A stretch of DNA of 64,000 nucleotides, from positions 1-64,000 of the forward strand of contig JARGFW010000001.1 in NCBI GenBank assembly GCA_029211085.1. Direction: 5' to 3'. The stretch is from Deferrisomatales bacterium (lineage in GTDB: Bacteria > Desulfobacterota > Deferrisomatia > Deferrisomatales > JARGFW01). A program made the position numbers and the translations under genes. This document shows, piece by piece, positions 32,368 through 34,260 of the stretch (the stretch's first letter is position 1; the number at the start of each line of letters is the position of its first letter). The notes beneath the pieces were generated by a model. It made no database searches. It had not been told where the DNA came from and saw nothing but the letters and a program-made list of their open reading frames with translations.

Positions 32368-33258
32368 ATGACACAAGCAGCGACCGGCGATCACCTGGTC
32401 CGTGGCCTGGTGGAGGGGATCAACGCCCGCGTCGTGGCCTGTGTGACCACGGAACTGGTGCACGAGGCCTGCCGGCTGCAGGGGACCCTGCCCAGCGCCA
32501 CGGTGGCACTGGGCAGGGCGCTGTCGGCGGCTGCGCTGATGGTGGCCCTGCTCAAGGACAAGCAGCGGGTGTCCCTGAAGTTCGAGGGCAGCGGGCCCCT
32601 GCGCAAGGTGATCGCGGAGGCCGACGCCGACGGGGCGGTGCGGGGCACGGTGGGGGACCCCCAAATTGACCTGCCCCGCAGTGGCGACGGCATCGCCGTG
32701 GCGCCGGCCCTGGGCCGGGCAGGGTTCCTCACCGTGCGTAAAGACCTGGGTCTCAAGCAACCCTACAGCGGGACCGTGCAACTGTGGAACAGCGAGATCG
32801 CCGCCGACCTGGCCTACTACTTCACCGAGTCCGAACAGCTGCCCTCGGCGGTGGGGCTTGGGGTGTTCCTGGATGGAAAAGGGGGGGTGGCCGCGGCCGG
32901 GGGATTCCTGCTCCAGGCCCTCCCACCGTCCGACCCCGAGGCCGTCGAGGCCCTGGCCCACCACGCAGATGCAGCCCCGCCCCTGTCTGAGCTGCTGCTA
33001 CAGGGCATGGACGCAAAGCAACTGCTGGCACAGATCCTCGGCGCCCTGCCGTTCCGGGTGCTGGAACGGCGCCCCCTGCGCTTCCGGTGTTCCTGTAGCC
33101 GCGAGCGGGTGGAACAGGCCCTGGTTTCCCTGGGACCGGAGCAGCTGGGGGAGATGATTGCCGCGGGCGAAGACGGCGACATCGGGTGTGAGTTCTGCAG
33201 ACGACACTATGTGATCGCCGCTGCGGACTTGGCGCGGCTGCTGCACCGGCGCCACTAG
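32368..33258 (+). CDS. hslO: Redox-regulated chaperone Hsp33
   Basis: The protein has 296 residues. The substrate-binding core (TVALGRALSAAALMVALLKD, FLTVRKDLGLKQPYSGTVQL) leads to the C-terminal zinc centre CSCSRERV...CEFC, with the CxC and CxxC pairs whose oxidation activates the holdase. The length matches the family. GGGAGG lies before the ATG. Its TAG stop lies within the left inverted repeat of the element at 33255-33412. Confidence 0.93.
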   Translation: MTQAATGDHLVRGLVEGINARVVACVTTELVHEACRLQGTLPSATVALGRALSAAALMVALLKDKQRVSLKFEGSGPLRKVIAEADADGAVRGTVGDPQIDLPRSGDGIAVAPALGRAGFLTVRKDLGLKQPYSGTVQLWNSEIAADLAYYFTESEQLPSAVGLGVFLDGKGGVAAAGGFLLQALPPSDPEAVEALAHHADAAPPLSELLLQGMDAKQLLAQILGALPFRVLERRPLRFRCSCSRERVEQALVSLGPEQLGEMIAAGEDGDIGCEFCRRHYVIAAADLARLLHRRH

Positions 33259-33412
33259 CAGGCTGCTGAAAAACCACTTTGGACCGCCCAGAGTTGCTCG
33301 AATGCGTCCACATACTTGCCAGAAAATCCAGTCCGAGTGTTTTTCTGCAAGATCTGGTAACAGGTTTCACTCCGCGAGAGGTGGTTCCCGGACTTTTTCA
33401 GCAGCCTGCTAG
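33255..33412. mobile_element. MITE-like element with 19-bp perfect terminal inverted repeats
   Basis: CTAGCAGGCTGCTGAAAAA at 33255-33273 is perfectly inverted at 33394-33412 (TTTTTCAGCAGCCTGCTAG), bounding a 158-bp non-coding unit. GGCTGCTGAAAAA-type termini are, from memory, seen at ends of some IS families in proteobacteria. No transposase lies within it or in the window. The left repeat supplies the stop codon of hslO. Confidence 0.8.
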
Positions 33413-33540: not shown

Positions 33541-34260
33541 ATGCCCGGAGGGACAGAACAGGCAACTCCCAAGTCGGGAAACAGCCGCTGGAGGCTGGTG
33601 GTGTTCGCTGTGGCGGTGGTCGCCGTGCTGGCGGCGGCCCGGTATCTCAACGCGCAGGAGCTTCTGACCCGGGCCCTGGGCTGGATCGAGGCCCAGGGTG
33701 CACTGGGTGCGGCGGTGTTCGTGGGCCTCTACGTACTGGCCTGCGTGTTCCTCATCCCGGGCTCGGTGCTTACCCTGGGGGCCGGCGCTGTGTACGGGGT
33801 GTTGCAGGGCTCCCTGTTGGTGTCGCTGGCGTCCACCCTGGGTGCCACGGCGGCGTTCCTGGTGGGGCGCTACCTGGCCCGGGATTGGGTGGCCCGCAAG
33901 ATCGCGGGCAACGAGAAGTTCGGCGCCATCGACGAGGGGGTGGCCCGGGAAGGCTGGAAGATCGTCGGCCTCACCCGCCTCTCCCCGGTGTTCCCGTTCA
34001 ACCTGCTCAACTACGCCTACGGCCTCACCCGGGTGAGCCTGCGCGCTTACCTGTTGGCCTCCTGGATCGGCATGATGCCCGGCACGCTGCTGTATGTGTA
34101 CCTGGGTTCCCTGGCCGGCAGCCTGGCCACCCTGGGCAGCGGCGGGGGCGAGCGCTCCCCGGCCCAGTGGGCCCTGTACGTGGTGGGCCTGGCCGCCACC
34201 CTGGCAGTGACCGTGTACATCACCCGCATCGCCAAGACGGCCTTGGCGAAGAAGGTGTAA
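33541..34260 (+). CDS. TVP38/TMEM64-family membrane protein
   Basis: The protein has 239 residues and about six hydrophobic segments. The family core is VFLIPGSVLTLGAGAVYGVL, then TLGATAAFLVGRYLARDW and GLTRLSPVFPFNLLNYAYGL. These are SNARE-associated/DedA-like inner-membrane proteins implicated in lipid or solute movement. ATG 33541 has AAAGGA upstream and 32 codons of the ORF-track frame were dropped. It lies 70 bp before the flavin disulfide reductase gene, a pairing suggestive of function together. Confidence 0.88.
   Translation: MPGGTEQATPKSGNSRWRLVVFAVAVVAVLAAARYLNAQELLTRALGWIEAQGALGAAVFVGLYVLACVFLIPGSVLTLGAGAVYGVLQGSLLVSLASTLGATAAFLVGRYLARDWVARKIAGNEKFGAIDEGVAREGWKIVGLTRLSPVFPFNLLNYAYGLTRVSLRAYLLASWIGMMPGTLLYVYLGSLAGSLATLGSGGGERSPAQWALYVVGLAATLAVTVYITRIAKTALAKKV

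Follow-up and report, generated by a model that had tools for sequence, protein, structure and literature searches.

The inverted repeat that directly follows hslO in the DNA analysed here (the window, 64,000 nucleotides from a Deferrisomatales bacterium) very probably marks a non-autonomous IS5-type MITE of 150 bp, with 15-bp terminal inverted repeats (TIRs) and a 4-bp CTAG target-site duplication (TSD), that entered the CTAG at the end of hslO and left the Hsp33 protein unchanged. Taken alone, the hslO element is an ordinary new MITE; the wider result is that elements of this class are found in excess at stop codons.

The original prediction described a perfect 19-bp inverted repeat around a non-coding unit at 33255-33412, and an inverted-repeat search of the window confirmed it, with two 19-nt arms (33255-33273 and 33394-33412) that are 100% complementary and have 120 nt between them, while the ORF list contained no frame of at least 60 aa wholly within the unit. 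We dismissed a chance origin of the repeat, since its 15-bp inner arm, allowing up to 2 mismatches, occurs twice in the window against 0.06 expected occurrences, and since further copies of all 158 bp, 99-100% identical, are present in the genome. The hslO stop codon was likewise correctly placed at bases 2-4 of the left arm (Table 1). The extent of the unit, in contrast, had to be revised: the repeat is exact, but the 4 bp at the outer end of each arm are the TSD and lie outside the element proper, which is therefore not a 158-bp unit with 19-bp terminal repeats but a 150-bp element whose TIRs are perfect over 15 of 15 bp, with a palindromic CTAG outside them. Because CTAG is palindromic, copies flanked by CTAG on both sides cannot separate repeat from duplication. 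One copy in the host genome (G000:C65:5814), however, carries CTAT as a direct repeat on both sides, which fixes the element at the boundaries given in Table 1 with CTAG as its target, and rules out a simple 19-bp TIR.

Table 1. Features at the 3' end of hslO, in window positions
Feature	Position	Strand	Basis
hslO (Hsp33 redox chaperone, 296 aa)	32368..33258	+	PF01430, NF001033; native stop TAG 33256-33258
Left TSD CTAG, its TAG being the hslO stop	33255..33258	.	Flanks compared across copies
150-bp MITE, non-coding	33259..33408	+	Copy comparison
Left terminal inverted repeat CAGGCTGCTGAAAAA	33259..33273	+	Arm search, copy comparison
Right terminal inverted repeat, reverse complement of left	33394..33408	-	Arm search, copy comparison
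Right TSD CTAG	33409..33412	.	Flanks compared across copies
VTT/TVP38-type membrane protein gene, not part of the element (ATG 128 nt beyond the right TSD)	33541..34260	+	PF09335 6.1e-32

A search of the genome for further copies had been proposed, and the host assembly (5.78 Mb in 470 contigs, 96.9% complete, 8.5% contamination) was found to hold 7 full copies and 2 contig-end halves, located on 9 contigs and 99-100% identical. Over its 150 bp, the hslO copy is matched exactly by five other full copies and, with a difference of 1 nt, by the sixth; CTAG flanks six of the full copies on both sides, and CTAT the remaining one. A pattern search of the host genome with up to 3 mismatches returned only the ends of known copies and 3 chance-like sites. 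As the dispersed copies are near-identical, the element has multiplied recently in this genome. The copy at G000:C65:5814 splits rmlD, the two parts of which match PF04321 at 2-119 and 111-283, and removal of 150 bp and one CTAT gives an empty site (...FDGTKQSPYTEQDLP... / ...VFDGTKQSPYTEQDLPAPQSAYGRSKLAGE...) in which a conserved motif is restored. Near-identical copies also lie in 3 ORFs besides rmlD, and one of the in-gene copies falls within a lipoprotein-like signal peptide. The original description of the unit as MITE-like is upheld by these near-identical copies, the perfect TIRs, the TSDs and the restored motif of the rmlD empty site.

The body of the element appears to be private to the host genome, as far as we searched: among 395 genomes of the phylum the 150-bp body had no full match, matches being confined to the ends or to one weak 44-nt internal stretch, and no copies were detected in the plasmid collection (distant mode) or in a pattern scan of viral contigs. 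In each of the two half copies (G000:C12:1-53 and G000:C278:7403-7455) the contig stops 53 nt into the element, the two approaching it from opposite sides; these may represent one insertion split by assembly, or the ends of a longer unassembled relative.

The target CTAG at hslO is made up of the third base of the terminal His codon and the TAG stop, and the reconstructed empty site, ...CAC TAG CGT, retains this TAG; the unoccupied site reads CGCCACTAGCGTGG and is expected in a wider form as ...CGCCACTAGCGTGGG... The hslO product matches PF01430 (5.8e-85) and NF001033 (8.1e-86), with the Pfam domain complete (1-272 of 273), and a C-terminal alignment (n=4) placed the end of Hsp33 within a few residues of the ends in four relatives of the same order, in which the hslO stop is TGA and the inverted repeat is absent downstream. 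Since CTAG is the duplicated target, the reconstruction indicates that the stop predates the insertion and was duplicated by it, and that the protein was neither truncated nor extended. The suggestion that the terminal repeat supplies the hslO stop is thus not borne out. As for the two outcomes originally offered for the C-terminus, that it was redefined by the insertion or precisely preserved, the empty site and the relatives lacking the element lead us to reject the former and support the latter.

Two other accounts of the repeat were weighed. An insertion could have created the hslO stop if only TA was duplicated and the element started with the G of TAG, in which case a longer Hsp33 would have been truncated. 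The YTAG/CTAR flanks of related ISs agree with a duplication of TA next to an element whose first base is G, but under this model too the empty site reads CAC-TA-G-CGT, with a G after the right TA, so that TAG would have pre-existed; the 4-bp and TA duplication models give the same hslO empty site, with the TAG predicted to be already there. The CTAT/CTAT copy fits 4 bp, and the C-terminus of Hsp33 agrees with those of its relatives, leaving a newly created stop very improbable. The other account, in which the repeat serves hslO as a terminator or as a hairpin for 3'-end processing and its likeness to a MITE is incidental, draws on the position of the repeat directly after the stop and on the fold of the full element RNA, which is far better than that of shuffles (z -5.7). 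This fold is, however, due to the 19-bp stem of the terminal repeats, and for the inner 120 nt the fold is like that of shuffles (z -0.27). A promoter/terminator scan gave no terminator-like site at the element, no U-tract follows the stem as it would the GC-rich hairpin of an intrinsic terminator, and the element had no Rfam match. Identical copies interrupt other genes, rmlD and the one with the lipoprotein-like signal peptide among them, and the repeat is not conserved after hslO, being missing in the four order relatives. The proposed terminator hairpin between hslO and the TVP38 gene is therefore unsupported, and the pattern named beforehand as the mark of a terminator, namely a repeat without other copies that is conserved after hslO, is the reverse of what was found. 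We consider a hairpin origin extremely improbable and rejected it on the copies in other genes, the absence in relatives and the lack of a terminator site.

Returning to the MITE, its likely mobiliser was sought through its ends. A scan of bacterial genome contigs with CTAGCAGGCTGYTGAAAAA returned at least 117 stretches, and among the matches listed were Acidobacteria, Nitrospira, several proteobacterial classes, Planctomycetes, Chloroflexi, Myxococcales, Rokubacteria and others. Most of the pairs among the matches listed are short non-coding units of ~100-230 bp and some are ISs of 1.28-1.33 kb; two transposases tested from such ISs, which share the same 15-bp ends in other bacteria, match NF033581 (IS5 family) at 1.8e-82 and 4.6e-72. 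A transposase with the same ends was also to be looked for in the host genome, and none was found in the 470 contigs, an absence that the fragmentation of the assembly makes weak evidence; the sole IS5-like trace there is a 44-bit profile match to a fragment with an internal stop, near which no TIR was found. Partners can be lost or unassembled, and we do not treat an autonomous partner in the same genome as a required feature of a MITE. The hslO element is short and non-coding, has TIRs and a TSD and occurs in several dispersed copies with the same ends, and its derivation from IS5 is indicated by ends common to an IS5-family IS and by a 4-bp YTAR-type target (CTAG, but CTAT in one copy). We infer that it owes its mobility to an IS5-family transposase acting in trans and recognising CAGGCTGYTGAAAAA ends.

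By anatomy, the nearest described element is MITEPsy1 of Pseudomonas syringae pv. phaseolicola, which, according to the available text of its report, is non-coding, 100 nt long, with 18-nt TIRs and a TSD of CTAG or YTAA, is attributed to the IS5-like ISPsy2 and has been demonstrated to transpose (PMC3189936). The terminal repeats of the two elements share the string CTGAAAAA, but the MITEPsy1 TIR given in that text (GGAAGGTCTGAAAAAGCC) differs from that of the hslO element, as do length and body, which places the latter outside the MITEPsy1 family; the same text reports no stop-codon pattern (PMC3189936). IS5 of E. coli uses a 4-bp Py-T-A-Pu target, most commonly CTAG (15/24 listed sites), and the under-representation of CTAG was noted alongside these targets (PMC5493358). 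Its likeness to the hslO element lies in the target sequence, whereas IS5 is autonomous and encodes its own transposase, which the hslO element lacks. ISs of the IS5 family that end in CAGGCTGYTGAAAAA (L048 from Methylophaga, L075, L076 and L103) have the 15-bp end in common with the hslO element and are likewise flanked by CTAG or YTAR, but are coding, 1.28-1.33 kb long and found in other organisms rather than in the host assembly. The exact TIR strings were not found in the literature searched.

Within 384 kb of the host genome, CTAG shows the strongest under-representation of all tetranucleotides (observed/expected 0.39), and of 150 CTAG sites free of the element 15 fall at the stops of called genes, compared to 4 of 7 or 4 of 8 CTAG insertions (p 0.004-0.008; the two half copies are possibly one insertion, hence the two denominators). 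These four are at hslO, at a gene on contig C64 with a PF01663 match, on C122 and at the C278 half copy. The C122 insertion (L182:13250-13407) lies at a single CTAG that forms the stops of two convergent ORFs of 154 and 147 codons, both of which are intact after the insertion. The C64 copy (L184:2487-2644) separates two genes, the second of which starts 9 nt past the stop of the first in the empty site, and the ribosome-binding region of this downstream gene was probably displaced.

The excess at stops holds for the class in other genomes. Among the matches listed, a called gene ends in the TAG of the flanking CTAG on 43/119 flanks (36%) compared to 54/854 background sides (6%; OR 8.4, p 1.7e-17). 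A second set, taken from whole genomes in the phylum after three duplicates had been dropped, gave 18/62 (29%) compared to 9/156 (6%; p 1.1e-5), and elements with CTAG on both sides gave 18/37 compared to 110/542 sites (p 2e-4), in a list in which the hslO copy is counted and one IS appears twice. All these stop figures depend on heuristic ORF calls, an unrefined background and loci some of which are related. The enrichment persisted in three GC classes and upon stratification by the base before CTAG (Mantel-Haenszel OR 4.5). An extended target consensus around CTAG is weak, with fewer G and more T at -1. No description of a stop-codon bias was found in the literature searched, in which subscription journals are thinly covered, and its novelty is thus provisional.

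Such a bias could be purely one of survivorship, with random insertion over CTAG sites followed by loss of insertions in genes or promoters, and we give this account about an even chance. In-gene insertions are indeed depleted among the matches listed (14/119 compared to 448/854 background sides), but the bias remains when in-gene sites are left out (43/104 compared to 52/392), and insertions at stops also exceed those at CTAG sites 1-100 nt downstream of stops (OR 5.0, p 3e-6, both among the matches listed), differences that uncalled background genes could inflate. Moreover, the near-identical host copies include both in-gene and at-stop insertions, and those in 3 ORFs besides rmlD argue that purging in the host genome is incomplete, though the numbers are small. 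We regard as possible rather than probable that CTAG-targeting IS5-type elements and their MITEs prefer TAG stops across bacterial phyla by a real insertion preference at gene ends and not by survival alone. If so, the TSD would rebuild the stop, and convergent genes sharing one palindromic CTAG would have both stops rebuilt.

At hslO, the MITE sits in the CTAG spanning the final His codon and the stop, and the duplication leaves an intact TAG upstream of the element, so that Hsp33 is unchanged; a regulatory role is unnecessary to explain its position. For this class of CTAG-targeting elements, stop codons would be safe landing sites, since genes contain few CTAG sites, TAG stops provide recurrent ones, and formation of the TSD rebuilds the stop. 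A transposon that both targets and duplicates CTAG can thus occupy a stop codon with the protein unaltered, and, with CTAG so infrequent within genes, stop codons would offer a neutral refuge, which would explain the persistence of such elements in a testable way. For annotation, where an inverted repeat overlaps a stop codon, the cause may be target duplication and not a terminator.

Other elements with these ends vary in their surroundings. In full-length ISs (L196, L199, L200 and others) the two flanks frequently differ (TTAG/CTAG or CTAG/CTAA), a pattern that hints at duplication of TA alone, with the adjacent G belonging to the element, rather than at a strict 4-bp TSD. At L035, L055, L090 and L125, elements lie at CTAG beside or within a recurring AAAATGCTCTAG, and one side of L035 reads ...CTAG-AGCATTTT, as though the element had inserted into the middle of a different palindromic repeat. 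In a second, asymmetric family, a conserved stretch resembling CATCTGC..CGTTG comes after the left end CAGGCTGYTGAAAAA, and the right ends resemble TTTTTGAGCAGCCTG; its loci (L079, L081, L089, L102, L160, L161, L164, L165 and L171) belong to widely separated hosts, namely Rokubacteria, Proteobacteria and genomes of the window's phylum.
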